The notes under the pieces are model-generated. The model did not search any database, was not told where the DNA came from, and worked only from the letters and a program-made list of their open reading frames with translations. This document shows positions 5,660-31,510 of a DNA stretch of 31,701 nt, one piece after another. Within the stretch, counting starts at the first letter, position 1, and each line of letters starts with the position of its first letter. Made by a program: the position numbers and the translations under genes. Source of the DNA: Chromera velia (taxonomy: Eukaryota; Sar; Chromeraceae); assembly GCA_018398765.1 (NCBI GenBank), contig JAHBMJ010001379.1, positions 1 to 31,701 on the forward strand. The letters are read 5' to 3'.

Positions 5660-5667
5660 GATATGCG

Positions 5668-5695
5668 TACCTCCCTGAACCTAATGTCTACTTGA
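5668..5695 (+). repeat. Left terminal inverted repeat of the DNA transposon
   Basis: Reverse-complementary to 9253-9280 with one C/T mismatch, and preceded by the 8-bp duplication GATATGCG. Confidence 0.9.
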
Positions 5696-5710
5696 AAAAA
5701 AAATATTAAG

Positions 5711-5735
5711 ATCGTCCGCGCCTGCGGCGCGGCCA
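5711..5735. repeat. Subterminal GC-rich hairpin repeat, left copy
   Basis: CCGCGCCTGCGGCGCGG is a 7-bp stem with a 3-base loop, followed by CC-ATCAAG. The same unit occurs twice near the right end (about 9166-9190 and 9200-9220, the latter with a mismatch). Subterminal repeats of this kind often bind transposase, which is inference here. Confidence 0.65.
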
Positions 5736-5960
5736 ATCAAGTCTATCCCAATTTGCGGCCTAGCAAATCTTATTCAAAGAATATAAAAAAAAATTAAAAA
5801 ATAATAACGTATAAATAAATCGATATATTGCCTTTAAAATACTATTCATACCTAGGTTTTGTACATTTCATCATATATAATCATACAATATCAATATTAC
5901 ATCCTAGATTACATCATACATAGCTCGGTGCCAATATATGGTCATATATAACATCTCTAT

Positions 5961-8819
5961 TCATTCATCTTCTGAATCAGAATCAGCAAGATTGCTCAAC
6001 CTGCAGATTTCACAGGCTTGCACCTGCGTTTGGCGAGCTCGCACTCTGAGACCACGCGCTTGAGAAAGAGCAAGCCTTTTTTGTTGCTCTTGTCTCTCTG
6101 CCTCTCTCTGTTGGGCCTCACTCTGTTCCTCCCCAGCTGCTACCAGAAAATTTAAAGACGAAGAAGCTTGGGCAGAGCCTGCAAGCGGAGAGGCAACTTG
6201 TTGTAATAAAGACACAAGAAAGGGGGAAGGTGCGGAGACCGTTCGCGAAAATCTGTATTCAAAATTTATCTGCAGTGTCTCTCCTGAGCGGGGAGACCAC
6301 TGCTGTCTCGCATCTGCGTACAAGTCAAACACAATTGCCCTTCCCACTTCTTCAACAGGATTTCTTCCCTCAGTGAGGGTGAGAAAGCGGGCACGAAGCT
6401 CATTTCTGGCCTCCTGCTTGCTCAGTGAAGACAGGCCGTTCACTGAAATTGCTCTCTGTCTCTCTCACCTTCTCTGCCTCACTGCATTGGACTGCTGAGT
6501 GCGTGCTACAAATTGATCTCCCCATGAGACCATATGGGAGCGAAGTTCAAAATTAAAGAACAAAGATGCAGGCTTCAACGTCCCCCCTCCGACTTCCTAA
6601 TTGAATTTCACGATGTACCCTCCCCAAAACTCAACAGCACAACCAAAGTCTGACAGAGGGACGAGGTCCATGCAGTGCGCGACTCCGTGGTCGAGGAAGA
6701 ACTTCCCGTCTCTATCTCTTCCAAGAGGTATGATCACAGCGTATCCTTTCTCAACATCTGATTTTTTGATTGACTGTCTGCGATACAGTCTTCCTGCTGA
6801 TGACCCTTCCTGGCGTGCGATACGGAGCTCTTCAACATAAGCGAACATGCAATGCACTGCTGCTTTTTTTCCATCTGTGAGTTCAATTGACATCAACTCG
6901 TACACACCATGCACTTGAAACCCATTCCCTTCTCTGTCGTCTTCGATCACAGCTTGCTTTGTCTGCGACCGAAAACGCAGGCGTCCTTGCTGCTGTCTGT
7001 TTGTGGAGGAGACGGGTCAAAACTTCCGAAAGCCCCTCGCGGCAATGGTGCCGAGGTGCATTCCCTCACTATTGTGCAGCGGTGAGCTTTTCTTTTCTCT
7101 CCCTTTGCCCCCCTTTCCTTCCTCTACGGCCACCTGTCTGAGAACTTGTTGCAAAAGAAGGAAGAGATCAAAAAGGTGGGGAACCAGCTCATCTTCTCGC
7201 GATTCTTCCGAGATTATTTCGTCCTGATCATCTCTTTCTTCTGTCTCGTTCTCTTCCTCTTCTTCTCGGCTCTTCTCCTCTGAACCAAAGAGGTGAGCAG
7301 AGTTAGCAGAGTCAAGCTCGTCAACAACGGAGTCGAGGGACTGTACAAGATAGCCGTCACTGAACGACTCGACAGGGGGGAAAACAGACAGACCGTGCAT
7401 ACCAAACCCTTCAAGCGTAGCACGAAGCGCTGCTCGCTCTTCTTCCATCACCTGCTCCAACTCTGCATCCGTCGGATAGGCTCCCGCACACTTCTTACAC
7501 TTGCACGCCTGAGAGTCTTTCTTCTGTCTGACTGGCCGGCCATCTCTACGTCGGAGGAGTTCAAAAAAAGGGCCCAAACGTGCAGCATGGATCTTTCGGA
7601 CTGTGTCCACAAACTGCTTGACAGAGAGTTCTGTCTTTGCACGAATGCACATTCTCACAATTCCAAACATGTGTTCAATGCAACGATCGGAAAAAATCGA
7701 ACGATAGAAGAAGTGGGAGGGGAAGTGCTTGCGATAAATTAAGAGGGCCCAGATGAAGAACTGACAACAGAGCAAAACGTCCACCATTGTTTGCAATGTC
7801 AGACCATGGATATGCGATGGAAGTCCCTCCTTCCGCAACCATTCTGTGTGCTACCGTACAAAGAAGAGCATGCGCACAATGAGACGAAAACGATCAATCT
7901 TGGTCAGTTCCTCCTGCTCTTTTCCGATGGTTCCGTCTCCACCCTTCAAGTTGTCTTTATCTGGAGAATTCTCGTCGTCGTTGTCACCCTCAGGACCCTC
8001 AACATCGATCAGACGCACCTGCAAGCAGGGTACAAAAAGGAGAGAGAGGAAACGAATGAAAAAAGCGTGTTTGAAAATCTGTCAGTCTTAGTGCGGTGCT
8101 GGAAATTTGCTGACCTGAATAGCATCTGTGCAGAAGCGCTGAGAGACCGCGAGCTTCCCACAGTCAATCAACCATCCCCTTAGTTTCTCTATGTCCGTCT
8201 CCGAAAGAACCTCATCTGCAGAGGGAAACTCAATCGGGTTGCTAAGCTCCCCTCTCTGTTGAGTCCCTTCTGCCCTCGCTGCTTCTCGTTCCATGGTTTT
8301 TTCCTCTTGCTTCTGCAGCAACGCGTGACTCTCTTCCTTTGACACAGGCTTGAAAAAACCCATGATTGACTGTGATTGCTTTGGCTATGGTTTTGCAGGT
8401 CTGGGGTGTTGGGGTGCAGTTGCAGCAGAAGAGGGAGCTTTCTTTGGAGGGCTGGCAACAGCAGAGGGGGGGGCAGAGGAAGGAGACGGCCCGGTGGCTG
8501 CCTTTGCCTTTGCAAAGACAGGGTTCTCACCCTTGGAAATAGGGGGAGCGTTGTTGTTTGTTGCGGCGGGGGCTTGTGAGGCCGGGACAAGGCACTGTAG
8601 ACAGCATGCGACTGCCCTTGCTTAACTTCTGTCTGAAAGGCCGACGAGGGATCTATCGTCGGGATTCTCGGGATCAAACTCCCTCACCGACTCAGCATTC
8701 TTCACGCCGACTGCTTCTTTAAGCTTGGTGTACACCTCCTGCCGCTTGTCGGCCTTTCCGAGAGGCCTTTCCAGAGCCTTGAACATGCTCTGCAAGAAGG
8801 CCGGGTCTTTTTTCGACAT
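5961..8819 (-). pseudogene. Transposase-like gene in one frame with six internal stops
   Basis: Reading minus from the ATG at 8819, one frame runs to TGA at 5961-5963. A 96-base intron (8114-8019, CAG/GTCAGC to TTGCAG) is the only splice. Internal stops are TAA 8622-8624, TAG 8385-8387, TAG 7851-7853, TGA 7017-7019, TAG 6597-6599 and TGA 6465-6467. Convincing coding sequence flanks each one in the same frame, about 921 codons in all. The N-terminus (FLQSMFKALERPLGK) is followed by an Ala/Pro-rich linker. Near residues 340-365 is DRCIEHMFGIVR...SVKQFVDTVRK, like the last catalytic block of P/THAP9-type DDE transposases. A CKCKKC cluster lies near residue 410, then an acidic stretch and a Gln/Glu-rich C-terminus. 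The first catalytic aspartates are not identifiable. The frame may begin farther upstream (ATG at 9137), but a better frame appears around 8880-8990, so that part is uncertain. Confidence 0.75.
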
Positions 8820-9163
8820 GTTGAAGGAGTAACCCCGAGGGTGGAGTTGGGGGTCCGGGTGTCGCACGAGGAGTTTCCTGCCAGAAAGCCTTCTACAAGT
8901 CTCAGTTTTTCTTAGACTCCGGCAAAGCAAGATCAACCACCAACACTTTGTAGGCAATCCTTCTGATGCTGTGAATCTTTCTTCTGTTGGGTCACGTTGG
9001 GTACTCTGAGAGGTAAAGTAATTGAACGAAAAGTCTAAAAGTCCGTCAATCTCGTCGATTTTTTCTTCTTCAGGGTTTAGATACACTTGCACTTTGAGAG
9101 ACGGGTAGACACGCATGCAGCTGCGATTCTTTAGCATGCAGCTGCATGCTGCCTTTCAAGACA

Positions 9164-9225
9164 CCGCCCGCGCCTGCGGCGCGGCCGGTCAAGACACTGT
9201 CCGCGCCTGCGGCACGGGCGTTCAA
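9164..9225. repeat. Two subterminal GC-rich hairpin repeats, right end
   Basis: Two tandem copies of the unit GCGCCTGCGG-CGGC...TCAAG, the first an intact hairpin and the second with GGCACGGG in place of GGCGCGG. They match the single copy near the left end. Confidence 0.65.
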
Positions 9226-9252
9226 GCCTATCTAAAAATGCGGCCCCACCAT

Positions 9253-9280
9253 TCAAGTGGACATTAGGTTCAGGGAGGTA
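9253..9280 (-). repeat. Right terminal inverted repeat of the DNA transposon
   Basis: Mirror of 5668-5695, followed directly by GATATGCG at 9281-9288. Confidence 0.9.
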
Positions 9281-9288
9281 GATATGCG

Positions 9289-9650
9289 AGCCATGCAACA
9301 CTTTCCAAACAACACTTAAATGCGTTGTACGGAAGTAAACAAACAAACTGTATTGCAATAAATAAAAAGAAGTTATATAGAAATGACGATACAGATTCCT
9401 TTTCTGTATTGGACAGAGGAAATACAGATGGTTCGAATTAAATGCAAATAAATGAGATGGGAAGATGAACAGCAAGATGTATGACAGTTTTGCGATGCAA
9501 AGTTTGAAGACTCAAACTGGAAGAAAGAACCGAACCAGTGATACACAGACTTTACACGTAAGTTGATAGTCATTACGCTGCCGTCACTCTAGCCATTCTA
9601 ACAAAAGTGTTAAGCAGAGCACGTTCTTTTTTCATGGCCTCTGTTTCTCT
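9289..9650. other. AT-rich spacer outside the DNA transposon
   Basis: No convincing frame. It lies between the transposon's right target duplication and the Gln-rich remnant. Confidence 0.4.
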
Positions 9651-9989
9651 TTCGTTGCAACCATCTCCGGAACCACACGATCGGGAAGGGCTTACCTCAA
9701 CCCTTCCTTACCAGCCAACCAGGCAGTCAATCAGTGGTTCCAAGAGCTCTTCGAGGGAGGCAAGAAGGAGATGGCAGACGGCCAGCAACTGCAGCAGCAA
9801 ATTGCTAACTTGTAGTAACAGCTTGCACAGTCGCAGACAGATCTGGCACAGGCGCAGGCAAACCTTCGGACGGTACAGCAGCAGGCACAACAGGGCCTGG
9901 CACAACAGTAGGCGCAGTAACAAGCCCATATCTCAAATCCATGTATACCACCCACCCCTAGGCAAAAACAGCCTTTTGATTGTTATTGA
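9651..9989 (+). pseudogene. Gln-rich coiled-coil ORF broken by TAG/TAA at Gln positions
   Basis: One frame contains a globular-looking start (AYLNPSLPANQAVNQWFQEL) and then a Gln-rich heptad-like segment (LAQSQTDLAQAQANLRT). The frame carries TAG 9813-9815, TAA 9816-9818, TAG 9909-9911 and TAA 9918-9920. All four sit inside runs of CAG/CAA, so each is readily explained as Gln codons changed by one C-to-T step. There is no frameshift. The frame ends at TGA 9987-9989. Family unknown. It may be the 5' part of the same ancestral gene as the following dioxygenase copy, or an unrelated transposon protein. Confidence 0.55.
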
Positions 9990-10075
9990 CTGTCCTCTAG
10001 CTGCGAAAAACTTTGCTGTGTGGCCACCAATGAACACATATATTAAAGTGTTAGTTCGACGTAAAAGCCCATTCG

Positions 10076-11119
10076 ATGACTGAGGCAGGCCACCCGTACC
10101 GTTTTTTGTTTAAAGACAAGCGCTGGCAGAGCCACCTTGCTGAGCACGGCTACGTTGTGATCATTCAGGTTCTAGGACCCAAAGCCATCGACTCTGCTCA
10201 TGAGAAGTACTGGACCTCCTTCGAAGCCGTCTACCCAGGCGTCAAACGAGAAGATCCCCACACGTAGAACCTCTTTCTGAAAGACCCACGGGGGTTCCTG
10301 CTCGATGGCCAGATCACCCACTCAGAGGCTGCCTGGGGCATCCGCACCAATCCGGCCGTCAAGAAAGTTTTCGCCCACATTTAGAAGACCGAGGACTTTC
10401 TCGTCTCTATGGATGCAACCATTGCGTGGCGGCCCTGGTGGCTATAGGAGCAGCTGACAGACAATTGGCTCAGAGTCTACCCGCTTGCCGAGTGGCTTCG
10501 AGAGACCGAGGGTCTTCACATCGACCAGAACCCCTTCTCCAAGCCGGACTTTGAGTGTATGCACGGAATAATACCACTGTATTCCGTGAATGAATGTACT
10601 GGAGGTCTGGAAGTCGTCCCAGGATCTCACTCCCCTGACAGCGGTGTAAAGAAAGAAATCATGACTTTCTGCAAGCACTGGTTGGATGACTGGTGCATGC
10701 TGCATCCCCATATTGACACCTCCACATATGCTAATGACTCATCTGTTGCAGGCAGACGGCTGGTCCTTGGGGACTCACGGACTGTCCATGGGGGGGTCGT
10801 GGGCACTGGCCACCCTTCTGCGGAGGTTCACGGGGGTGGACGTGTGGACTTTGCCCGTCTGTCCTTAACTGTCTGCATGACCCCAGCCTGCAAGGCTGAG
10901 CCCTCCGTCCTAGGTGTGAGGCGGCGAGGGTTTGAACGCGGGTCGACGTTCATGCACTGGCCTTATGAAACACGTGTGGCCAGGAGTGGACGTGGAAATG
11001 TTATGCCGCCGGAGCTGACCCCGCAGCAGCTTTCCCTCGTTGCACTTGGTGGTCTACCGGAGGAGGCAGTCCGTCAGGTAATTGCCAGACCAGGTATGGG
11101 AGGCAACCTAAGCCATTGA
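10076..11119 (+). pseudogene. Intronless phytanoyl-CoA dioxygenase-like copy with three TAG stops
   Basis: A 348-codon frame from ATG 10076 to TGA 11117-11119 is interrupted by TAG at 10265-10267, 10382-10384 and 10445-10447, with no indel. It carries the hallmarks of the Fe(II)/2-oxoglutarate PhyH family. The HxD iron motif is in LHIDQNP (His148, Asp150). A GGLEVVPGSH turn follows, then the distal His238 in DSRTVHGG and Arg261 in ARLSLTV, which would bind 2-oxoglutarate. In related proteins as I recall them, the first two TAG positions (DPHT-stop and FAHI-stop-KTED) are conserved tryptophans, so TGG-to-TAG (G-to-A) is likely. The copy is intronless although host genes nearby are split, which suggests a retrocopy or a transposon-carried gene. 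A dioxygenase of this group would hydroxylate a lipid or other small substrate. This copy is presumably dead. Confidence 0.8.
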
Positions 11120-11963
11120 GATACAGCAGCAGCAGCAATAGAAAAAGATGCCTCAAACCGAGTTTCCGTTGGTTAAAAGGGCGGCGGGGATTGCCTAGGG
11201 GATTGCAGAGTCACCTCTGAAAGAGAAGGGGAAGTAGCAAAGAAACATAGGGGCAAGCTCTGGTATGGGGAGCCCCTATAGACACCACAGGCGTGGACAC
11301 ATAATAGAGAAAGTCTAAAAAGAAAAAAGATGACAGGGAGAGTGCAAAAACTATATTCAGACCATATAGGATTCCCGATTACAGGCAATTAAAGCTCGGA
11401 GATAGTAAGAGAAGGTTATACGCTATAGTAGCGGCTGTAGACTACGCTATTATGCCAAAACTTTAAGAGTTACCCAGATAGCGCAGTAACTTTACGGTAG
11501 AGTTGTTCAATGTCATTAGTGTCGTGTGTTGACACTTTCAATTACTAAAGTGTCAACATTGATACTTATAGCAACACTTTTAAGTAAAAACGGCATTTTT
11601 GCTAGTATTTAATACGTTTTTCACACCAACCGTCATCAACCGTCCCCAACCGTGCATGCAGCTCTTTAAAAACCCATAAAAAACCAGTCAACTACAGTCA
11701 ACTTTAATCATAAAACGTTTTATCACTAGGCTCCGCACTACATTAAAAAAAAAAAAAAGAGAAAAAGTTTTTTTTTTTATAATCTTTTTTTTATTTATCA
11801 TGGCATTCAATAGGCACACAACTGTTGTTCAAGTGTTGTAAGAGTGTTGCACGGGGTGTTGCATAATACTTGCATTGAAAACCATATACTTTTCAATTAA
11901 TAAATAAAAAAAACAAAGATTGGAAACTTTCTTTTTTTTTTCTTTTTTTTTTTATTTATGGAG
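11120..11963. other. Left arm of a long inverted-repeat element and AT-rich spacer
   Basis: No gene. About 11175-11740 is imperfectly reverse-complementary to about 16602-17212 (see that entry). 11740-11960 is AT-rich with poly-A and poly-T runs and holds the right copy of a 20-bp inverted repeat at 11819-11838. Confidence 0.5.
11819..11838 (-). repeat. Right copy of a 20-bp inverted repeat
   Basis: Perfect reverse complement of 5223-5242, with diverged similarity continuing outward. Confidence 0.45.
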
Positions 11964-12238
11964 TGTTAGCGTTCTATACGGGGCTAAGAACTCTAAATAC
12001 GTTGATGTGCATTCAGAGATTCCTTGACATATAAGTTTGACCTAGAAGAGTTCACACAATGTTCAGTCAAACAGATTAATCAGTCGCTAGAAGGCAGGCT
12101 GATGCTTTTCTGACGTCAGTCCACGTTAGATTGCTACATGATGCCAGAGCGGCCAGTGCCACATAAATCACACGCGTGCTTCATGGCGCCACCATTCTAC
12201 AGGCCCGTCGCATGCCCGCCGCTCATAGCCGGCCTACA
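11964..12238 (-). repeat. LTR (3' LTR relative to gag-pol)
   Basis: 275 bp, TGTTAGCG...GCCTACA as written on the plus strand. Compared with the other LTR by eye it has 24 substitutions (23 transitions, one C/A transversion) and a 2-bp TA insertion. Confidence 0.93.
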
Positions 12239-12491
12239 CCTGCCTGCTGCTTAAAACCGACGACCATGCTTGGTTCCAATTTTTTCAGACAAACGCGGAC
12301 ACATAAACTCTGCAAGGTATATACATAAGTAGGCAATACAAGCTAACACGGATGCCGACGGACGCGTACACATGAACGAATCATGAGTGAAGACAGAAGT
12401 CGGAATGCTGAGCCCGACCACGCACACGCTACCCTACATCAAGGAAGATGCACGACTGACTCATTTCTTTTTCTTAATCCTTTTCATCTCT
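12239..12491. other. Internal 3' untranslated part of the retrotransposon
   Basis: Lies between the end of the gag-pol frame and the 3' LTR, where integrase would be expected. A weak purine-rich stretch (AAGCAGCAGGCAGG on the minus strand) touches the LTR and could be the polypurine tract. Confidence 0.45.
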
Positions 12492-15400
12492 TCAGAACTT
12501 ACATGCATACATTCCACTCCATAAACCTGTCATTTGTGCCCAAATAAAGTTTATCTTTCTACTCCTCAACTGCCACCTACACCCATCTGGCTGCATTCTT
12601 AATTCCAACAACAACAACTGACAGACCTCTTTTCTTTCTTTTTCTTCTGCTGGCATCGACGTCTGAGGGTGTCCAAGACGACGGCTCAGCGCATCCGCCA
12701 CATGATTGCGGGCGCCAGGCACGTATCTCGGAGTGATCTCCAGCTCGTTGAAAGTCAAGACAAACCTGTGCATACGTGGAGACATCAAGGTGCAATCAGC
12801 AGACACATTCACATACTTTAAGGTGCAATCAGCAGACACATTCACATACTTAAGAGACTTATGATCCGACCACACCTTTATTATATAACTCACGTACGGC
12901 CTCCACGTCTTCACTGCAAATACATACGAGAGGAATTCTTTGTCTCTAATCGGGTACTTTAACTCTGTCTGCATCATTTTTTGAGAGGCGAAAGCACATG
13001 GACGCAGCTATCCAGTCTCAAGGTCTTCCTGCATGAGTACAGCAGCGAGCGTCTCTGTTGACTCACATGCATCCACAAAAATTTTAAACGGACGCGCAGG
13101 GTCAGGAATATACAGTTCGACAGTATTTCTCACTGCCTCTTTCACTGCCTCAAAGCTTTCTTCTTCTTTTTTCCCCCATTCAAACGCTTTGTTCCCTTTC
13201 GGTAACGCATATAGAGGACCTGCTTTTTCACTAAAGCGAGGTACAAAGCGTTTCACCCAGTTCGTAAAACTAAGGAAAGAAAGCACATCGTTCTTGCTCT
13301 TTGGAGTGGGCCACTTACTCACTTCCTCTGTCTTGCTTTTCTCCGGCCTCACTCCCGTTCATAAAATCTTCAGTCCCAGAAAGACGACCTCAGTCTGCAT
13401 GAAATAACATTTTGAGAGCTCTGCATACAGCTTTGCCTCACCCAGCAATCTGAGTATAGTCCGGATATGCTTTTTATGTTCTTCTCTTGTGCGTGAGTAA
13501 ATGAGAATCTCATCCAAAAAAACAGATACAAAACGATCGAGACACGAACGAAGAACATATTGAATCACCCTCATTCCATGTGGTGGTATATTCGTCAAAC
13601 CAAAAGAGACAACCAACCACTTAAAAGAGCCATATCGAGTAGTGAAAGCAGTCTTTAGAATGTCTTCCTCCCTCATATGCATTTAATGGTAATACTGATG
13701 GAGGTCAAGTGTCGTGAAGTAACGGGCACCATGCAGTCGATCAATCAAACCCTGAGGGTGAGGAAGAGAATATTTATCTTTGATCGTGATTTTGTTCAGG
13801 CCTGTGTAGTCACAACACATGCACATGGTTCTGTCCTTCTTCTGGACAAACAAGATCGGAGCAGCATATGGAGATGCAGACGGCCGGATGAATCCCTGCT
13901 CGATGTATGCGTCTATCTGTCTTCTCAATTCATCCAGTTCTCCGATCGACAAACAATAGGGCAGGTGAGCGGGAGGAGAGTGACCTGGTTCAAGTTCAAT
14001 CTTGAAATCCAAATCAGGTCCCCTCGAGGGAGGCAATTCCTTCAACTGATCAGGAAAAAGAGTCGCACGATCAGCCACAATTTCCTTCACATCAGGCGAA
14101 ACCTCAACATCCGGTCGAGAGAGAAATTTATACACATCTGACAAGTCAAAGGCCGACCGAGCAGGATGATCAGACGGGAGAGAAGAGAGAAAGTCAGAAC
14201 CCAAAATCCCCCCATCATTCATTCTCCCCTTTCCTTTTCCTTCACTGACTTCAGTTGCATGAGCAGAACACTCAAAGTCGCAGACACTGTCAGGCCGATG
14301 TGCCGTCTCCAGACATATGATATGACAAACGGCACCCCTTTTGATTGCTTGCTTGGCCTGCAGATGTGATACAATGGGAGGGCAAGGTCTATTTTCTATA
14401 CACGCACCCCCCTGAAGATTCACTTCCTTGCCGTTGAAGAAGAAGCAAAGGGAACGAGACCAGTGACTGAGTTCAGGTTGGTGAACATCACTCCACTTCC
14501 GTCCAAGAATGATGTCATGGCCACTTCCGTCAGCAAGCAATGCACCCGGTCCGACTGTTTTCTGATATCCCTGAATTCGAAGGGGCACAGCAGGTGCATA
14601 CTCACTAACCTCTTATCTCTTCGGCTCCTTCACGGCGACCTGGCAGTGAAGGGGAAATTCAATATCAAACCTGCGAATATGCAACTACCGATGGTGTGCA
14701 AACTTGCTATCGATGAAAACATCATCGGCTCCAATGTCATACAAGACTCTGACTGGAGTACCCATACCCGTGCCATGATAGACAAAACCAGTCTCAAACG
14801 AATCATCCTCATCCTCATTATCTGTCTTACATGATCCTTCCTTTCTTCTCTGTCTTTCTTCTTCTTCTTCAACCACACTACGTACCGCTTGGTCTCCTTC
14901 GACCACGACATCATCATTCTCGCTTCGGTTTCGGATCGTCCTCACCCCGGCAATCCTCTTTGATTCCGCCTTGCATGCTGGAGATCTACTGTGATGGGGC
15001 TGAGGCGATCCACCAAAGGACGGAGATTGCGTACGCCCCCTTCCGCCTAAGCCAAAACCTTTGCCAGGCGACATCGATGAACTTGGGCTGTCACCTTATC
15101 GACCAGGCCTGCCTTTCCCTCCCCAAGACTGGGCACCCTGATCGCCGAAAGAATACGGACTCCAAGACGGGAAGGGAAGGAAAGGCTGCCAGGGGTAGCC
15201 GTGCATCCATAGAAAAGGCTGAAAAGGTCTTGTTTGGGACGTCTGAATGGCTCGCATGTGTGGGGGCAACTGGGGTCCGTTGCTATACTGCCTGACTTGA
15301 TGGTCCAGCTCTCCGCACAGCAAACAACGGTGCAGTCTCCGTCTGTTGTCCCACACATTGTCAACCTGCAAAATTGCAGGGTGACGTGGTGGCAACCCCG

Positions 15401-16244
15401 TAGGCCTCCAAGGAGCACTAAACCCACATAATTCTATTGGCACTGGTCCTGTCGGGTCAATCGGGTCCAACGCTGTAGGCGTGTGCATGTTTTTCCGACT
15501 CCAGTGGCCCTTGCGAGAGTTGACATCCTGCAGCCAGAGCTCATTGTCAAGGGCCTTCTCCATCGCTTCCTCCAGAGTGATAGGTTCCGCTCGCTCCGTC
15601 TCGTACCTGACAACAGGAGGCAATCCTTTGATGTAGTCATCAACCAAATCCAACTCATTCGCTCCTGGGATCTTCAGAGCGAGTGTGGAGAACTCTTCGT
15701 TGTAGTCGGTGATGGACCCTGTGCACATGAGGGTGAAAACCTTCCTCCTCGCCTTCCTTCTCTCATGCTTCTCTTTGTACCTCCCTTTCAGCATTTCACG
15801 CAGTGCTGGCCAATCTGCAAAACCCTGTCCATGCTTCACCCTCAAGTCAAACCAGTTCCTCAGGGGTGCAGACAGAAAAGTCTTAGCGATTCCCAGTTGA
15901 CGATGACAAGGGACTTGGGGGTTAGTGAAGTAATCATCCGTGTCCGTGATGAACCTCTCTGTTTAGTCGCGGTGTCCAATAAACGTCTCCGGCTTCACCA
16001 GAGTGATGCGAGGCACCTGTTCGTGTTCTTCAACTTCAGGGCCCTGAGGTGCAGCAGAGGGAAATGCACCTTCTTCTGTAGGGAACACAGGTGGTGCAGC
16101 AGCATTGGTTTGAGCTGTAACTACACCTTCGAGGATCTACTGGAACTGCTGCTAGTTTTGTTGCAAGGCTAGCATGCCCTGCTAAAGGTTGTGCAAAGCA
16201 TTGTCAACTTGCTCCAATGTCCGTAGAATAGGAAGTTGTTCCAT
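12492..16244 (-). pseudogene. gag-pol polyprotein frame with ten internal stops
   Basis: One frame of 1251 codons runs from ATG 16244 to TGA 12492-12494. Internal stops are TAG 16182-16184, TAG 16152-16154, TAG 16137-16139, TAA 15963-15965, TAA 15096-15098, TAG 14685-14687, TAA 14613-14615, TAA 13683-13685, TGA 13359-13361 and TAG 13008-13010, with no frameshift. Gag has a Gln-rich start, then a retrotransposon gag core (ITLVKPETF...LRNWFDL) and a zinc knuckle near residue 308 whose last Cys is Tyr. Protease, near residue 501, reads DIGA instead of DTGA. Reverse transcriptase keeps FGLTN but has FLDE instead of YLDD near residue 911. RNase H follows and contains an 11-residue duplication. The TAA at 13683 sits exactly where gypsy elements have Gln (YH-Q-I.V). 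This copy cannot be active. Confidence 0.92.
12787..12852 (-). repeat. 33-bp in-frame tandem duplication in the RNase H region
   Basis: Units 12787-12819 and 12820-12852 are identical except for the last base. They duplicate 11 residues (LKYVNVSADCT). Near-identity means the duplication is younger than the transitions that separate the LTRs, or it was copied from the source element. Confidence 0.9.
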
Positions 16245-16307
16245 GACAGACAATTGCAACCAACAGGGGATTCAGACTGAACAAAGTTGGAAATCCCTGT
16301 TCAAAAG

Positions 16308-16326
16308 CTTGCTCTGGTAACCACAC
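16308..16326 (-). promoter_or_regulatory. Probable primer binding site of the retrotransposon
   Basis: Just inside the 5' LTR the minus strand reads GTG then TGGTTACCAGAGC. This resembles the complement of the initiator Met-tRNA 3' end used by many gypsy elements (TGGTATCAGAGC) with one inserted or changed base. Position and TGGT start fit. The tRNA identity is inferred. Confidence 0.5.
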
Positions 16327-16599
16327 TGTTAGCGTTCTACGGGGCTAAGAACTCTAAATACGTTGATATGCATTCAGAGGTTCCTTGACATATAAGTTTG
16401 ACCTAGAAGAGTTCACACAACGTTCAGTCAAACAGATTAATCAGTCGCTAGAAGGCAGGCTGATGCTTTTATAACATCAGTCTACGTTAGATTGCTACAT
16501 AATGCCAGAGCAGCCAGTGCCACATAAATCACACGCGTGCCTCACGGTGCTGCCACTCCGCAGGCCCGTTACATACCCACCGCTTGTAGCCAGCCTACA
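16327..16599 (-). repeat. LTR (5' LTR relative to gag-pol)
   Basis: 273 bp with the same ends as the copy at 11964. The transition-only divergence is concentrated in the 100 bases nearest 16599, where C/T and G/A differences alternate. Confidence 0.93.
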
Positions 16600-16604
16600 T
16601 GGAG

Positions 16605-17420
16605 TGCAGAGCCTAGTTTTATCAGTTTCAATTTCTGTTTATCACGTTTAAAAATCAATAAATGATTATAATTTGAAGGTTTGGGTGATAGGGGGTTTGA
16701 CTTAGCAAACTTTTGATCTCATTATTGCCTGGAAAGTTCAAGCATTAGGTGATAACAAATAAAAAAAAAACAAGTGTCGACATTGTACTAAAATATAAAT
16801 GTCATTGATACTTAATGTCATTCCAAGCTCAAGTGTCGACACTGATGTTTATCGCCTGTGATATTTAACAACTCTACTTTATGGTTTACAACCCCCTAAA
16901 GTTACTCTTAAAAGTTATCGTGCTTTACAAATTTTAACAGATGTAGACAGATGCCCTGAACTTACTAAAAAACAGTAGAAATGTTATGCTATGATATAAT
17001 TAAAGCTACTAAACTATAAATTAAACTAGTTTTTTATATAGTGGCATTAGCTGTGATGTAGAAAATTTTAAAGAGGAACGATCTGAATAGTTACGGTAAA
17101 ATTAGTTACAAAAAAAATGTAACTTCATGTTTTCGTGAAATGAGTCTATAATATCTTACGTCAAAAACCTTACTTTAAGATTTTAAGGCCTATAGTCCCC
17201 CACTCGCCGCCTTTATCGCGCGCGTATCGATCTCTGTATGCATGTATGCATATATATGCATGCACGCGTCCACGATTTATGCATGCATGCATGCATTAAT
17301 TATCGATATATAATTAATTGCATGCATGCAGTCTCGGAATCCTACGTACAATAGTAGGACACCGGCCTCTTCGATCATTGCAAGAGACTTCACTTCAGTG
17401 ACTTCACGACCTTGACTTAA
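16605..17420. other. Right arm of the inverted-repeat element, AT-rich, no gene
   Basis: 16605-17212 mirrors about 11175-11740. 17213-17340 is a cluster of ATGCAT and TGCA words with overlapping palindromes. Confidence 0.5.
17213..17330. repeat. Cluster of TGCATGCA palindromes
   Basis: Repeated GCATGC/ATGCAT words, a CGCGCGCG-like run and TTAATTATCGATATATAATTAA make almost the whole stretch self-complementary. It lies at the outer edge of the right arm of the inverted-repeat element. Confidence 0.6.
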
Positions 17421-17927
17421 CTTCATATCACTTCAGTATACATAACACGTAACTTCACCACCGGAGACGATGAGGTAAAAGAATGTAAAAGAGAAAGCTT
17501 GGTCCACACCCATCCCAGACTCAAGTCCTTGGGCACAGTGGCACCCAAGAGAAAGAAACCATTTGATATTTTGATAAAGTAGCAGAGTCTCGTAGCATAT
17601 CCGGACGCCAAAGACAAAGACGAAAACTATCTACTACAACTTGATGACTTTCTAATCATTAAAAAAACAGAGTACTTGATAAAACACAGAAAACTGAAGA
17701 CAAAGACAGAGTTGTATGCCATTGATCCCGCCAAACCAACAGAGAAGTGAGCAATCGCGTGCTAGAGATGTGAGAAGCAAGGGTTGAAACTTCATTTCCT
17801 CAACCATCGCACAGGAGAATTCGTCTAACACGTAGTTGGCTGTCGAGCTTTTGCATCTCGTATGCCGTTCACCAAGAGCAAAGGGGTCAATGCTTGCCTC
17901 ATCGCCCAAGATGCTGCCTTTTCACAG
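17421..17927 (+). pseudogene. Broken unknown ORF with in-frame stops and a clean splice donor
   Basis: A single plus frame reads convincingly across TAG 17580-17582, TGA 17748-17750, TAG 17763-17765 and TAA 17826-17828. It ends at CAG/GTACGTG (donor at 17928). A TAA at 17418-17420 precedes it, and the same frame looks coding upstream of that too (from about 17382). The product is basic, with LQLDDFLIIKKTEYLIK and then a C..C-like segment (AC-stop-RCEKQGLKLHFLNH) and GCRAFASRMPFTKSKGVNA. The TGA and TAG beside the Cys pair would fit Trp codons changed by G-to-A. No family is recognised. It is probably a transposon protein exon. Confidence 0.5.
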
Positions 17928-18152
17928 GTACGTGTTCTTAAGTATGAGACGCATTCTGGTACTTTTACCCTTTTGTAGTGTATAAATGCATTTGAATTGA
18001 TTGTGTTTGAATGAATTATACAAACTACGATTGTTGCATTGAGTTCGTGTTCGCAGGTGCTTTCCTACCTACCTAAGAATAGCTTTGCATAACTTACGTT
18101 CTTAACCGTAACATATATATTTTAGCTTATGTTACGCACCACAAAAAATGTA

Positions 18153-18173
18153 ACATGGCCCTTTGGGCCATGT
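18153..18173. repeat. Perfect 9-bp hairpin, 3-base loop
   Basis: ACATGGCCC-TTT-GGGCCATGT, flanked by GTAAC/GTTAC words that also pair. It lies in the AT-rich transposon tract. Confidence 0.7.
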
Positions 18174-18414
18174 ATATGTAACGAAGTTATATTAGTTACG
18201 GCTAATGCTACTGTGTATAGTTTTTACACTCAGTGTACTTGCGGAACGCTAGACGCCTATTATAGGCCGATGGTGAAGTAGAAGGAACCTTAGACAATCC
18301 CAGCAGCAGTCATCCGAAGGAGGTAGGAAGTGCTAGCGGTGTTAAAGATGTTTAATCATGGAATATATTTATTCACTAGTTACTCACTTCAAAAGTAATA
18401 TAATCACAAATATA

Positions 18415-24238: not shown

Positions 24239-24539
24239 TAGAGAAAGACGGGGTGAGAGAAGGCAGCGGTAGTGTAACACGACAAATGCACGCATACACA
24301 CTTGACGTCAGATGGCTCGAGGAACGAAAAATGACACTCTAAAGGTACAAAAAAACGCCAGGATTTCTTGCATCGACTACCAGAAGGACGGAGCTTGCTG
24401 TTCGATCACCGAAAGAAAGAAAGAAAGAAAGAAAATAACAGAATTGCACAGAACTTCACCACACACAGCTCCCCTTTCAAGACAATTTTAAATCCACCAT
24501 TTGAATTTTCCGGCGTTCCCGCTCCCCGCCCCCCCGTTT

Positions 24540-25821
24540 TCAACTAGTCTTGTCCGGTGTTTTTTCGTTTCCCCTAGATTCAACCCTCACGTTGTCCCCC
24601 CCCCGGCCACAATTTAAGTTGGCAGGGACGCTATTGAGGACCAACTCGATCGCGTTGAGGGCCTCGTTGAGGGAATCCTTCGAGTCGTCCCCATCTTCCG
24701 CTCCCCCCAGACGCATGCCCCCCTCTCCCGAAGAGGCAGAGCTAGCGGCCAGAGACCCCCCCTCAGGAGGTGTGCCGTTGGATCGTTGGAAGAAGCCGGT
24801 GGAGGTCCGGTCTTGGGAAGTCGGGGAAGGCCCGAAGAAGGGACCGGCCTGAATGGCTACAGCTGTGACAGCAGGAGGGAGACCGGGACCATTTTCGGTC
24901 TCCGGCCTCCTGGCGGGAACACCTGAAGGAACGCCTACTCTACCAGCCGAGTGGAATGGGGCTGTCGCCCCCTCTCTGCGTTTGTAAATTCCCGCAGGCT
25001 CCTTGGGAGCTTCGCTGGGGGTGCGCAGGCACACCATTCTGGTGTTGGGCTTCACTTCGAACACCTCTGAAAAGCACTGTGTGAGGAGTGCGGGGATTTT
25101 CTTGGGATGCGGGCCAGGGATTGTGTCGAGAAGGTTAATCACGTCTTTTTGGTGCTTTTTCATCAGCTCTCCAACCACGGCAACGGAGAGAGCGGAAATT
25201 CCTTCACTGATGAGAGTCTCTCGGAAGAGGCAGTCGATTCGAAACCTGCATACAAGGACACTCATCCTTCTTTTCTGATCGTTGGGTACCATACAGAAGA
25301 AACAAGTGGATAGACACAGAGACACACAGAGGCCTGCCGTGCGACACATAAAACCATACATACAGGAATGAAGACACTCAAGCACGTAAGTAGGTAAGCG
25401 GACAGTCAAGCAGGCAGGTAGGCAGGCAGGCAGACGTAATGACAGACAGACACGCAAAAAAACAGATAAGTGACAGACGGATAGTCTGCGTTTCTTGTAG
25501 CGCAGCGCGGAAAGGCAAGAGTGCATGCAAGGAGCCATGACACGTACAGAACAGCTGCTCAATTTGTTCCTTCTCTCAGACAGTTCTTTTCAGGGCTTCC
25601 GCTTCTGAATCATATTACGCCCCCTCGACTCAGCTTGTCAACAACCCATTTCTACCTCGTCTTTTGTTTTGAGTTTCGAACAGTCTCTCTATCTTTTTTT
25701 CAGCGTATCCTTCTTGCTTTGTCATACTCAGCACACACAGGCTTCTCTTCGTCCGAAGTCTCTTCTTGTCCCCGTGCGTCTAGAAAGAAAGGCAGTCCTG
25801 TTTCACATTGTGCTGAAAGTT

Positions 25822-25866
<45 letters not shown>

Positions 25867-28800
25867 AAGATAGAGAAAGAGAGAGAGAGAGAAAGAGAGA
25901 GATAAAGCGAGACACAGAGGAGAGAGGGAGAGAGATAAAGCGAGACACAGAGGAGAGAGAAAGAGAGCGCACGGAGAAGGCAAAAGCCCAACAGGAAAAA
26001 TGCCAGAGCCGACTCACTGACTTGATGTACGTGTAGATTTTTTCACGTCCTTCTGCAGTGTTGGGGTCCACAAGGATGTCGTGGACGTCGGGATCGATGC
26101 GTTCAAAGTCCGGGGGCGGGGCAATGACGGAAGGGCCCTCGGGGGAAGGGGAGGGACGCGAAATTCCGGAAGAGGAGCTGCTGGAAGACTGCCCTGCGCC
26201 TCTGGGGATAGAGGCAGACGGGGCACCCCTCTCGGAGGAAGCGAAGCCTGAGAGAAGACCTTTACCCGTGGAAGGTTTACCACTGTCTGAGACAGCAGAG
26301 CTTCCCTGCAAGAGCTTGTTTCCTGGAGGGGGGGTCGGCAGGAGATGACCGCCTGGCTGAGAGGACAGAGCGGTGGTCTCGGAATCTTCGCTGTCGAGAG
26401 CGAAAAATTCTCTAGGGAAGAGGGCCAGACCCTGCGAAAGAGAGAGATTCTCCAACTGGGACATGGTCCACGCTCCGCCGAACGGCTTCGAGGTCTTCTT
26501 ATTTTGCTTCTTCTTCAGCTGGCGGAGGTCATCCTTCAGGCAGACGTCGAAAAGAAGCTTCACCTGAGACGAAGAGAAATGAAGTGTGCCCAGACTGACT
26601 GAATGTAGCAAGCAAAGCCTTGAAATCTGAAAGAAATTACTTGGTGTAGCGGAAGCTCAAGATGAGGGGTTTGACATGCCGATGCGAATGCAAACAACTT
26701 CTTCATGGGAAGTATAAGAGGCGGAAATGCAGAGAGGAGTCCCATGCATCACAGAAGGCAAGCCCAAACTTACCGGCAGCTGTTCGAGAAGTTCATCCTG
26801 TGTCAACCAGGAGTGGGGCACGGCGTCGCGTTGTTTGAGGACTCTCACGGCCTCCAGGCACTGACGGACCTGCATTCCAAAAGGAAAAGCAGAAGCGACG
26901 AAATTCAGTTGGGTCCTCACTTCCGCGAGCTGACCTCTCTTTTGTTCCCTCACTACTTTTTTTGCCCAATTGGTTACGAGTCGGTGGTGCTGGCTTTCGG
27001 CAAAGTATAAATTCATGCGAGCCTACGAACTTTGCACTCCGTTTGAAATTTGAAGCAAACGACTTGTCAATGAGAGCCCAAAGCACAAAAGACAGCTTTC
27101 CTTTCGCGCGAGCTTCTATGCTGCACGAAGAACGCATGGAAGCTGGTACGCCCAGCCACCGACCTCTTTACGAAGTGTCCCCAGACGCTGCTGGACTGCG
27201 GCAGGAAGCTCGTCGAAACGGGACACCTGTCGATGACAGAAACAAAAAGAGGATCACGAATTGGGAGGGACGACAAACACATTTGCGCAGGCAATGCGAC
27301 AGTCGACATTACGAGAAGCGAAATGAAGTTCTCGAAAACAGACCAGTACTGGGTGGACGGAAATTGGGGCATCACTCGCTCGTGTCTTCTCTCTCTTTCT
27401 TCCCGAACTCTTCTCCTCAAAACCAGCCCCTTCCATGCGAGAGGACTAGCTACAGACAGAAGCAGCAGACCTGTTGCTGGAGGCAGTAGATCACTCTAGT
27501 CTTCTTCAACTGCTCGTCGTTTGCGTCCTGTTTGAGGATCCACCGGATCTGCATACACGGGCACAAAAGCAATGAGGACGCTTCAACCTCCAACACACTT
27601 ATGCACACAAGAAGAGACAAAAGAGGAAGGTCGACACCAGGGAGGCGCACTGCAGCCGCGGCATCTGGGTCAGTTCGGGAACTTTTCTCCTGTCGATGGT
27701 GAATTGAAAGCTAAGCAGGGCAACCGGAAGTACCGACTGACCTCACTCATCGGCCTCATGATTTGGCGATTTCGGTCGGCGTCGTTCACGGGTGGACCAG
27801 CTGTGTTGCTGTCTCCTGTGTCAGACGTCGCGTCATCCACGTCCCCCGGGGCTTTCGGCTCCCTCTGCATGAGACTCAATCCACCTCCAAGAGCCCCGTC
27901 GGTTCCCTGTCTCGCCCCCCTTCCGAGGTTCTCAAAAGAAACCCCGCTGAGAATCGCGTGGAGGTTTGCAGTGTGCCCAGTCCCAGTTTCAAGAGAGGCA
28001 GAACCACTCAAATTGCTCTTCCCCTCTACGTCAACGAAATCCTCTCCACGCAGAGACAGACCACCGATGCCACCCTCTGAGTCTCCCCAGAGACCGCCAC
28101 CGGAGGAAAGCCCCCCCCAGAGCCCTCGAGTTACGTCAGAACCTGCACAGACGCTCATTTCGATACACTTGGTTTGTTTCTTCCTCCTCTCTACATTTCT
28201 CTTGTGATAGCGAGACAGGTGCTTCTGTGTTACCAGCAGACGTAAACGCCCAAATCAAATAGACCCCTACCCGCCGAAGATGTCACTCTGCGAGACAACC
28301 GTCAAGCGAATTCTTCCAGACACTCCATCCATATCCACTCGCCCTTTTCCCTTCAAACAAAACAAGAATCCAATGACAGACTGACCAGTCAGATCGTCAT
28401 CCGCGGGCAGTTGCCACAAGCTGCCTCTACCCACTGCTGCATCTGCGTTTGGTGCCCCCAACCCCCCCGCCGCAGGTTCAAGAGACCCGTCCTCCTCCAA
28501 TCCCCCCAAGCACTCGCCGTCATCCATTCCGGGAGGAGGCATGAAACGGCCAGACTCGAAGGAACCGTCCTCCATATCGGCCATCGCCTTTGAAGGAGCA
28601 ACGTCCTCAAACCCCGGAGGGGGTCCGTCAAATCCTGGATCATCTAGAGCCGTCAGTAGTGCCCCCTTCTTTTCAGGGGGACCCCAACCATCACCACCTC
28701 CAGAATCTCGCCAAATGCCCCCCTGATCAACAGGGAAGGGACACGTCTTTACAATAGGGGAGCCGCTTGGAGACTGGGCAGGCTGTCGGTCTGACGAGTT

Positions 28801-31024
28801 TCTGCCCCACACATTGATCTCCTCCACCGTTGCCCCCCTCGCTTGGTCGTCTACTGAGTTCCCTCCCCCACCACCTTTGAGAATGCCAAGAAGAGCATTT
28901 GATGGCTTGACGGGGGGTAATCGGGTGGGTGTTGTTTCGGTCAATTTTGGGGCTAGCAGAGGTGTCTGTTTTGGTTCCAGTGTTGAAAAGCTCCGGCCCT
29001 CCTGCTCTTTGCCTAGGCCTGACAGGTATGACGAAGACGATGCTTCCTGCCTCTTCAACTTCTCTCCTGCTTTTGACGACGTAGCCGTGGAGGCCGTCTC
29101 CTTCTGACTGTCTGCACCCTTCGACTTTGAAGTCTGTCGGACCCTCTCGATTTGCACACGCCTCTCTTCTGCAGAAGAAGAGAAACAGAAGGAGAAGGAG
29201 ATGGAGACATCAAGAGGTATTGAAGGTGCTACAAGCCAACGGACGCACGCGAGCCGCAAAGAAACAAGAGGCAAGTCGAGAAACTCTGCTCGGAAAGGCC
29301 AAAAGTACACTGTATTGTACAGAGACGGAGAAGGTGAAGGAGATGGAGACATCAAGAGACGTTGAAGGAACTGCAAGGCAACGGATGAAAGCGAGCCGCG
29401 AAGAAACAAGAGGCAAGTCACCGAAAGGCCGACAGTCACTGGCTTTCGACAGGACTTAGGAGAAGCTTCACTGACCGAAGACTGTCTTCTTCAACCACTC
29501 AAAGGGAGAATCTTTGGGTAAGTTCTTCTTCTCCTTTGCGAGGTCAGAGGCCCACTGGATCATCGGAGGGTCAACGTTCTTCACAAGCGTCGCCTTCAAC
29601 TGCAAAGAAAATCAACGAAGAATTCCTGCGTGCACAATCGAGAATGACAAACAACTTTCGTTCAAAAGAAAAGTGCAAGTCGGCAGACAGCACAGAGAGA
29701 GAGGGATGGAGGCAGGGAGAAAGCGACAGAGACTGACCAGTCCACACGCCCCCATCACCCACAGTACCACTTGACAAAACAGACGAGCCTCCACGTTCCT
29801 CTCCGCGTTCTTCAAGTTCTGTGGCGTGATGGAAGTCATCTCCTTCTTCTCATCTACCAACTGCACGACGCCAGGACACAACATGGAGGGCATGAAAAAA
29901 AATGGGAGGCCACCGTGCAGCCTCTCTATTGTCGAGTAGGCATCGTAAGATGACGGAAACAACAGTCAAAATGCTTCACGGCTGTACTGTTTGACAGCTG
30001 CTTCACTTGAGAAAGGCGTCAATCAGGCTGTGAAGGGAAAAATCATCCAAGACCGTCACAAAACGAAGAAATTGCAAATTCCTTTCTTCACTTCCCAACA
30101 GACCTCTGCCTTGATCCTGTCCCACTCAGTCCCATAGTAAGACCGCGCATCCTCCCGAAGCAGATACCCGTAGTTACCGTCAGCAGTCGGAATCGCAATG
30201 AAATCGATAGGGGTGTGATCCCCACCGATGACTTTCCCAAAGAATTCCCACCCACATGTCTCCTTCCACTGCGGCAAATCGGGTTTCAGCTGCGATCAAC
30301 AAAATGGGAAAGCATACAGATATTTACAACCCAACTCTGTATCGACAATATGATCCTCATTGTGTCCACCGAATCTTCGTTGAAAGCGAGAAACCATACA
30401 TTCCGATGGTATTCAAAAAACATGCAAATGTACTCCCATGATGTATCTGGGTCTGCATCCTCACGAAACGAAACATCTTCTCGACTTATGACTTAGGCCT
30501 CTCCACCCGCTCAAAAGGTTCTTCTCTTCCATCCCCCCAGACCCCCCTGAGTCCTGTGTGTCCCTTCTTTTGATTTACCGCGTTGCATTTGTAGTCTTCC
30601 CGGGTGGTGTATTGCATCTTCTTTCTCTCTCTCTGCCCTACATCACTTCCCTCTCCGACTCTGATGCTGACCAAAACCTTCTCCATCCAGCAAAGAGAGC
30701 TGCCCCTCACAAAGCGCCCCATACCAACATCGATTTTGCATGCCTGCATGGCCATTCGGGACAGATCTGGTTCTTCAAGAGAGTTTTTCCAATCCTTTGC
30801 CTCACCTGTTCAAGGAATGTGATGAAGACTTCTACTGCTTTGTCCACCGTGATCTGGGACCTCGCTTCCTTCTTGATGAACACCAACCTCCCCTGCTCTG
30901 AGAGGAAGATTGGATCTGTGCATCTGTGCTCATCCGCCAGGAGGAACCTCAACTTTCGAGGAGCTCCGTCAACCCCCAGCAACAGCTTTCTCAAGGGGGA
31001 ATCAAACAGCAGTGCAGCGGACAT
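24540..31024 (-). CDS. Large 12-exon gene, unknown protein of 1122 aa
   Basis: Exons on the minus strand are 31024-30806, 30743-30672, 30289-30104, 29860-29738, 29599-29476, 29168-28386, 28142-27742, 27548-27495, 27226-27164, 26869-26774, 26563-26022 and 25245-24540. All acceptors are AG after pyrimidines, all donors GT, and every intron phase matches, giving an uninterrupted frame ending TGA. The ATG at 31024 sits 14 bases inside an exon that begins after CCCGCAG at 31038, so a 5' leader intron is likely. Residues 1-240 are globular (e.g. FFGKVIGGDHTPIDFIAIPT). 245-635 are disordered Gly/Pro/Ser/Asp-rich. 636-740 are helical and charged. Another disordered block follows, then a helical segment near 890-960 (ISALSVAVVGELMKKHQKDV) and a disordered tail. 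No domain is recognised. Function is unknown, possibly a scaffold given the layout. Confidence 0.83.
25825..25980. repeat. (CA)n(GA)n microsatellite with a 33-bp duplication, intronic
   Basis: CA repeats at 25825-25852 pass into GA repeats. Within these a unit beginning GATAAAGCGAGACACAGAGG occurs at 25901 and again at 25934. It lies in the last intron (25246-26021) of the large minus-strand gene. Confidence 0.92.
29187..29420 (-). repeat. Tandem duplication with a 142-bp period, intronic
   Basis: AGATGGAGACATCAAGAG at 29199 recurs at 29341, and GAAACAAGAGGCAAGTC at 29261 recurs at 29403. The copies are roughly 85-90% alike by eye. The unit lies in the intron 29169-29475 and abuts the acceptor of the 783-base exon. 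Confidence 0.85.
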
Positions 31025-31038
31025 CTCGGCAGTCCCTC

Positions 31039-31510
31039 CTGCGGGAAAGCAGAGTTTTTCTTTTTTTCACGGATTTGTACGTCACACACGTGGAGATTCC
31101 TAGTTCTGAACCTCCTGAACGGGCTTCAGAAAGCGAGGAGGATGCTCAAGCTGCAAACCCGTCAGTCATGCAATGTCATGCAGTAATTTGAGTGGATTTT
31201 TGTGCATGGCCCGTGAATGCCCGTGACACAACATTCAATTACGTGCCCCTCAAGTCGGCTCACGGGCGGCTCGCCGCTCGCACGACTTTGCATTAATGTT
31301 GGAATCTGGTCCGGATGAGAATCCGGATTCACAACCAGTACGTCCCCAGAGCTGAATAAGGTATCGTTGCCATCAGGACACATCCCCTGATTGACTGTCA
31401 GTGCTCTTTTGTAGAACGGACTGGTGTGTGGAGTTCTGGGAGTGACCCGGTATTTTCTGTATCTTGGCGTGCACGTAGCCGTCTCCTTCTTCTTCTTCGT
31501 TTTCTATCAG
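31039..31510. other. 5' flank of the large gene
   Basis: Holds the presumed leader intron and promoter. A minus ORF at 31383-31162 has protein-like composition, but its possible donors are all phase 0 and do not fit the phase of the exon at 31038. Short CCCGTGA/TCACGGG words recur at 31208-31268. No promoter element can be named. Confidence 0.35.

Follow-up and report, generated by a model that had tools for sequence, protein, structure and literature searches.

In a 31,701-nucleotide (nt) contig of Chromera velia (JAHBMJ010001379.1, assembly GCA_018398765.1; hereafter the window), several decayed mobile elements and a duplicate of a phytanoyl-CoA-dioxygenase-like gene lying among them are interrupted by in-frame stop codons. 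We found that these stops are by-products of a C:G-to-T:A (C>T) process that burdens the CpA and CpG sites of mobile-element DNA. In the clearest remnants, the stops do come from C:G-to-T:A change, and our comparisons support a process to which mobile-element DNA is exposed and the host gene of the same window, in the part read, is not. Its target appears to be mobile-element DNA and not, as in the repeat-induced point mutation (RIP) of fungi, duplicated sequence as such. The explanation that we favor, with moderate confidence, is a decay targeted at mobile-element chromatin, most likely through cytosine methylation at CpA/CpG plus deamination. The genome used for all comparisons comprises 4040 contigs (177.8 Mb), and the window is the whole of contig C1377.

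Stops in the clearest remnants come from C:G-to-T:A changes

A sequence-only reading of the window had held that the transposase-like frame of a DNA transposon, a Gln-rich open reading frame (ORF), the dioxygenase copy, and a "17.4-kb ORF" all keep one frame through their stops, as does the gag-pol region of a long terminal repeat (LTR) retrotransposon. When stops per frame were compared with 400 Markov simulations, this was borne out in three of these five stretches. In the transposase stretch, the best frame has 9 stops in 996 codons versus 21 to 47 in the other five frames, and none of the 400 simulations was as low; the same is true of gag-pol, with 11 stops versus 22 to 86 in the others (0/400). 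The dioxygenase copy has 3 internal stops versus 9 to 15 in the other frames, a count as low in 9/400 simulations. In contrast, the Gln-rich ORF and the 17.4-kb ORF, both in repetitive DNA, are within chance. The least-stop frame of the former has 0 stops, which 56/400 simulations matched, and it differs from the Gln-rich frame proper (22 Gln in 106 codons), which has 4 stops; for the latter, 192/400 simulations were as low.

It had also been argued that every stop can be derived from CAG, CAA, CGA, or TGG by a single change. This is true, yet it holds for any stop codon; we therefore dropped the argument as circular and used comparison with genomic copies instead, which does support C:G-to-T:A change. 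In the reading frame of its sister, 4 stops interrupt the dioxygenase copy, and the sister codon at each of these places (4/4) is CAA, CAG, CGA, or TGG. In the transposase, 6/9 stop positions are informative, and there all 51 non-stop homologous codons (51/51 with one locus per place, 62/62 if overlapping loci are counted) are CAA, CAG, CGA, or TGG, while 14 further homologous codons at the same six positions are also stops. The other three comprise a stop found in 14/14 copies, one found in 22/23 copies, which is likely the natural terminator, and one without coverage. The description of the damage as "stop-only" was too strong, as indels (1, 6, and 24 nt) occur within the dioxygenase ORF too. 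The frame is shifted by the 1-nt indel, and the fourth stop lies upstream of this indel.

Transitions are most frequent at CpA and CpG

We determined the substitution spectrum by comparing the window elements with their genomic copies, using one best match per locus and scoring C before A or G (CpR) apart from C before C or T (CpY). Transitions outnumber transversions in every element, with 546/63 in the LTR retrotransposon (21 loci), 1351/155 in the DNA transposon (24 loci), 90/15 in the dioxygenase pair (1 locus), and 527/190 over the full extent of the repeat holding the 17.4-kb ORF (15 loci; 316:60 over positions 17300 to 18000), so that the ratio spans 2.8 to 8.7 by element. C>T changes at CpG and CpA are 2 to 6 times as frequent as at CpC plus CpT. 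Relative to the transversion rate, the CpA rate is 23.1 in the LTR retrotransposon, 20.7 in the DNA transposon, 15.2 in the dioxygenase pair, and 8.2 in the 17.4-kb repeat, and a bootstrap over loci gave CpA/CpY ratios of 4.2 to 6.3, 1.7 to 2.1, and 2.1 to 2.6 for the LTR retrotransposon, the DNA transposon, and the 17.4-kb repeat, respectively.

The direction of change was read from differences private to one of 26 transposon rows, with one locus per place (L054, L063, L067, and L068 dropped). C:G-to-T:A changes account for 354 of these 463 differences, versus 49 T:A-to-C:G changes and 60 transversions; an earlier count including some overlapping loci gave 340, 50, and 55. By context, C>T was found at 132/2690 CpA, 72/1025 CpG, 89/4287 CpT, and 60/3071 CpC. 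With overlapping pairs pooled, the triplets CAA, CAC, and CAT stand at 0.18 to 0.20, CAG at 0.11, CGN at 0.20 to 0.23, and CCN and CTN at 0.06 to 0.11. On the 5′ side of CpA/CpG there is a mild preference for A, not for TC or CC.

The same pattern is seen between LTRs. The LTR pair of the window shows 20 CpR transitions, 3 CpY transitions, and 1 transversion, and the five same-contig pairs examined, this one included, which are spaced by 1.2 to 10.5 kb, show 14 to 25 CpR transitions, 2 to 10 CpY transitions, and 1 to 3 transversions, with T on both LTRs; the target site duplication (TSD) was checked for the window pair only. A survey of the loci read gave 13 families, 2 of which were left out with fewer than 15 substitutions. 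CpA and CpG rates exceed those of CpC and CpT in 8/11 of the families with at least 15 substitutions, namely the 4 queried and 4/7 others.

Ultraviolet (UV) light raises C>T at dipyrimidines (CpC, CpT). We rejected UV damage because these contexts are low here, the reverse of that expectation. Plant-type CHG methylation was likewise rejected, CAG being the weakest CpA context, and pure CpG decay misfits since CpA is also among the highest C>T contexts.

CpA damage is low in a host gene duplicate

The host gene of the window has a collinear paralogue on contig C3744, to which it aligns in seven main pieces, 85 to 96% identical, covering ~3.7 kb of a 6.15-kb span, plus one piece at 71%. In 425 aligned bases, there are 20 transitions, 1 of them at CpA, and 21 transversions; leaving out one piece that aligns poorly (77%) reduces the sample to 353 bases, with 13 transitions, 13 transversions, and CpA again 1. 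The CpA rate is thus 0.6 times the transversion rate (353 bases) versus 8 to 23 times in the repeats, and the ratio of CpA transitions to transversions is 1:21 versus 34:15 in the dioxygenase pair (Fisher 2.3e-7; 425 bases). C:G-to-T:A change is concentrated in the repeat families and not so in the 353 to 425 readable bases of the host-gene duplicate. CpG transitions are raised in the host gene as well.

The dioxygenase pair, whose two copies are of one age, serves as a second control. Taking T as derived, T at CpR occurs 53 times in the window copy and 12 times in its sister. Outside the 325-residue frame, CpR changes number 19 in the window copy versus 1 in the sister, with CpY changes at 4 versus 3 (Fisher 0.042).

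Base composition offers a third comparison. In 101 AT-rich 500-bp windows of the loci read, the observed/expected (o/e) ratio of CpG is 0.77 to 0.93 at a GC content of 31 to 38%, versus 0.41 to 0.44 at 35 to 38% when the transposon spectrum is run forward. Since AT-rich windows keep their CpG, the transposon spectrum does not look genome-wide. As a separate observation, TpA o/e is 0.17 to 0.45 in most gene-like 1-kb stretches, which probably include introns, versus ~0.83 to 1.06 in AT-rich ones.

Methylation machinery

We searched the genome in six frames for the C5-methylase domain PF00145, a procedure in which split exons may be missed. Three loci were above the cut-off, on contigs C3982, C1092, and C675. 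The nearest entries in the PDB for the first two are DNMT2; only C-terminal pieces were found of the third, which we take to be DNMT2-like from a CFT-type motif. These are three separate methylase loci in one genome (L087, L088, and L090), DNMT2-like in two cases by PDB and in one by the motif. No methylase of the RID/Masc1 type was found in this search, split exons aside, and the hunt for a divergent or RID-type methyltransferase suggested by the sequence-only reading yielded instead three probable DNMT2-like genes and weak, unclassified matches on C788 and C1422. On C788 (L092, C788:24100-26000), a DNMT-like exon carries motif I, DFWAGIGGLSLG, behind a long N-terminal part of low complexity and possibly belongs to a fourth, unclassified DNA methyltransferase. 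An SRA domain is spread over two exons on C2797 (L093, C2797:69300-71000; E 2e-14 and 7.6e-12), its best PDB matches being a bacterial SRA endonuclease, UHRF2, and UHRF1, and also SUVH proteins. No TET/JBP match exceeded the cut-off in the search. The SRA gene, an indirect sign of 5-methylcytosine (5mC), and the C788 exon matter because 5mC is reported to be undetectable in species with only RNA-type DNMTs (DNMT2/6-only) (PMC12344493).

Explanations for the damage

The sequence-only reading had named methylation-driven deamination as the simpler alternative to its own proposal, and it is this alternative that we favor, with CpA hit almost as often as CpG. Mobile elements and the sequence embedded among them would share one chromatin state, in which the C>T rate would be raised, with CpG and CpA affected most and CpT and CpC to a lesser degree. 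Chemically, the most probable route would be 5mC placed on repeats, with a purine preferred 3′ of C, and then deaminated. Decay would be gradual and on both strands, not a premeiotic burst, and would turn Gln, Arg (CGA), and Trp codons into stops, the frame mostly staying open because indels and transversions are comparatively rare. What 5mC decay leads one to expect is what we see, i.e., a C>T excess at CpA and CpG, on both strands, and no overdispersion between copies. The data show the spectrum with its polarity and context, and how low it is in a small sample of one duplicated host gene and in one intact dioxygenase sister; methylation, the enzyme responsible, and a targeting that follows chromatin and not sequence identity are inferred.

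Several points weigh against this explanation. Plain 5mC decay does not usually bring CpA so close to CpG. The control from the host gene is small (353 to 425 bases from one pair, partly coding), its larger figure includes the 77% piece, and CpG transitions are raised there too (5/39 to 8/42), so that clear specificity for repeats is confined to the CpA component. For the dioxygenase pair, there is no third copy for polarizing, and the contrast once third codon positions are included, 33:8 versus 6:5, is not significant (0.116). One 500-bp window, with a GC content of 24%, has a CpG o/e of 0.29, and 3/11 families (3, 5, and 9) have no context skew. The methylases that passed the cut-off appear to be of the DNMT2 kind, and species with RNA-type DNMTs alone are reported to have no detectable 5mC (PMC12344493). 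Finally, the match of the C788 exon (protein E 0.014) does not reach the cut-off, and the sequence beyond it is mostly a run of N.

RIP is triggered by duplication and strikes both copies. The sequence-only reading had raised the possibility of a repeat-directed, RIP-like system. Such a system, recognizing long near-identical duplications and sending C>T bursts into both copies, we regard as improbable. It would account for the C:G-to-T:A polarity, for CpA being among the preferred contexts, and for several repeat families being hit, and spared gene copies could be due to selection favoring survivors whose genes stayed intact. It could also explain why the few youngest pairs are almost CpR-only: in the youngest bin, 98 to 99% identity over at least 250 bp (1 pair), there are 15 CpR changes, 1 CpY change, and 1 transversion, and the CpR/transversion ratio is 15 and 10 in the youngest bins, then ~6 to 7 from 97 down to 85%, in a test for bursts whose youngest bins hold 1 and 5 pairs and whose pairs are not independent. 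Other features speak against it. The host-gene duplicate has no CpA damage to speak of in its readable part, the dioxygenase pair is not struck in both members, the sister being largely spared even in the flanks outside the frame, and, as described above, the enzyme search returned nothing of the RID/Masc1 type. Runs of strand-coherent changes within one copy, a feature of single RIP cycles, were not seen among 20 transposon copies (77/170 same-strand neighbors versus 84.1 expected, z −1.09), although repeated cycles could blur them. Nor are CpR hits per copy overdispersed (index 0.79, 15 copies, one 283-bp segment; 1.09 in an earlier set of 19 rows, three being duplicates). Customary RIP thresholds are TpA/ApT above 0.89 with (CpA+TpG)/(ApC+GpT) below 1.03. 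The second of these indices, both of which the sequence-only reading had proposed as a check, is at least 1.03 in all 32 windows of the contig, its lowest value being a borderline 1.03 at 11001 to 12000, where alone the composite index is positive. These indices would miss a process acting on CpA plus CpG because they were built for CpA-only targets.

The remaining alternatives dispense with methylation. Plain deamination in silent, poorly repaired chromatin, with genes protected by transcription-coupled repair and selection, agrees with changes on both strands, with the DNMT2-like look of the methylases above the cut-off, and with a CpY/transversion rate of 3.6 to 10.9 in repeats versus 1.6 in the gene; we consider it unlikely, as it leaves the 2- to 6-fold preference for CpA/CpG over CpC/CpT unexplained. 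Neutral decay of pseudogenes in the ordinary way, with a transition bias throughout the genome and nothing targeted, would suit remnants that are old repeats with few indels, and CpG is raised in the gene pair too. It is nevertheless quite improbable, since the gene duplicate has a transition/transversion ratio of ~1 and 1 CpA transition, versus ratios of 2.8 to 8.7 in repeats, and since the equilibrium GC of the repeat spectrum is 0.12 versus 38 to 56% GC in the 1-kb stretches of the window. Direct editing of element DNA by an APOBEC/AID-like or other DNA deaminase would produce abundant C>T changes and few of other kinds, but appears very improbable from the pattern of substitutions, given that there is no strand polarity, that the 5′ context leans mildly to A at CpA/CpG rather than to TC or CC, and that the damage extends beyond retroelements to a DNA transposon and a gene duplicate.

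Relation to known systems

Methylated transposons of vertebrates and plants undergo ordinary 5mC deamination at CpG. The decay in Chromera velia resembles this in being a gradual C>T decay of silenced repeats and differs in that CpA is nearly as mutable as CpG; it differs from plant CHG methylation in the weakness of CAG. With fungal RIP (RID/Masc1), it shares C:G-to-T:A change in repeats, a preference for CpA, and in-frame stops; it departs from RIP in the spared gene duplicate (as read), the largely spared dioxygenase sister, the lack of strand runs, a CpG as strong as CpA, and the lack of a RID-type enzyme among those found. The nearest described case is the mitotic Dim2-dependent mutator of Zymoseptoria tritici, in which a C>T load in transposable elements, with CpA as a target, is linked to a cytosine methyltransferase outside meiosis (PMC8016269). 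There, more than 98% of C>T changes are stated to be at CA, with CG untargeted (PMC8016269), whereas here CpG is at least as strong as CpA; Zymoseptoria has Dim2, whereas in the present genome the role of a methyltransferase is inferred. C>T signatures at both CpG and CpA are reported for element copies of Tuber melanosporum and Aspergillus (PMC4352252). These are fungi, and the same source scores the Tuber signatures as fractions of transposable elements and records Dnmt1-family genes (PMC4352252).

A 2022 review describes RIP as the sole case known in which the mutagenicity of methylated cytosine is put to use, and considers it quite possible that RIP has arisen in other lineages than fungi (PMC9246332). 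It is conceivable, if rather unlikely, that Chromera velia, a non-fungal eukaryote, has a CpA+CpG mutator that is active and directed at elements. This would be a RIP-like defense operating in mitosis, which writes stops into transposons by means of a methyltransferase other than RID. Among the matches listed from one open library (titles and abstract starts), there was no report of such decay in alveolates, which is not proof of its novelty. If our explanation is true, the decay would serve as a testable indication that DNA is methylated in a group about whose methylation the matches listed say little. Counting CpA transitions per transversion, in repeats versus gene duplicates, would also provide a cheap genomic assay for cases that the usual RIP indices miss.

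Organization of the window

The features discussed above are listed in Table 1. A published assembly of Chromera velia (193.66 Mb, 5953 scaffolds) is reported to contain ~30 Mb of transposable elements (PMC4501334).

Table 1. Position of the mobile elements, the gene duplicate, and the control gene within the window (TIR, terminal inverted repeat)
Feature	Position	Strand	Evidence
DNA transposon, 29-nt TIRs and 8-bp TSD	5668..9280	-	TIRs 5668-5696 / 9252-9280; TSD GATATGCG at 5660-5667 and 9281-9288; frame statistics; genomic copies
Second LTR element, 5′ part: LTR ~9290-9603, then Gln-rich, putatively gag-like start	9290..9928	+	Genomic matches
Decayed duplicate of phytanoyl-CoA-dioxygenase-like gene	9919..11372	+	Identity to intact C336 sister
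LTR retrotransposon with gag, reverse transcriptase, and RNase H pieces broken by stops	11964..16599	-	LTRs 11964-12238 and 16327-16599; 5-bp TSD TGGAG; Pfam matches
Dispersed repeat containing the 17.4-kb ORF	17032..18222	+	15 other genomic matches; C>T context skew
Host gene region (control)	24500..31100	.	Close collinear paralogue at C3744:19679-25829

The minus strand of the DNA transposon carries the broken transposase-like frame, pieces of which had no match above the cut-off in Pfam, "transposase" being the label of the sequence-only reading. Copies of one 283-bp piece of this element (7908 to 8190), 92 to 97% identical, outnumber those of most other parts of the stretch queried, which suggests a related or shortened element family.

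The LTR and Gln-rich stretch of the second LTR element has 43 genomic matches including itself (42 other), and positions 1 to 314 of this query recur ~6 kb away on several contigs; the Gln-rich start following the LTR is probably gag-like. The element, about 640 bases long, is truncated at the start of the dioxygenase copy, and the two overlap by ~10 bp at 9919 to 9929. The duplicate (1.45 kb) is 89 to 90% identical to the C336 copy, whose open frame of 325 amino acids matches PhyH (PF05721, E 1.4e-7). No such LTR accompanies the sister (L091) in its readable 5 kb, because comparison of the window with that locus gave the dioxygenase match only; the last 2.5 kb of L091 are N. The junction could represent a captured gene or an insertion.

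In the LTR retrotransposon, we found profile matches to Retrotrans_gag (PF03732, E 1.2e-7), RVT_1 (E 3e-17), and RNase H, the RNase H piece containing a perfect in-frame 33-bp tandem duplication (12787 to 12851). Elsewhere in the window, a 75-bp tandem repeat of 5.4 copies, 99% alike, lies at 2837 to 3243 within a 379-residue open frame. Runs of (ATGC)n, present at 17235 to 17330, also occur genome-wide, where ATGCATGCATGCATGC was counted 1513 times forward and 1484 times in reverse, versus 29 and 24 for a control read backwards.

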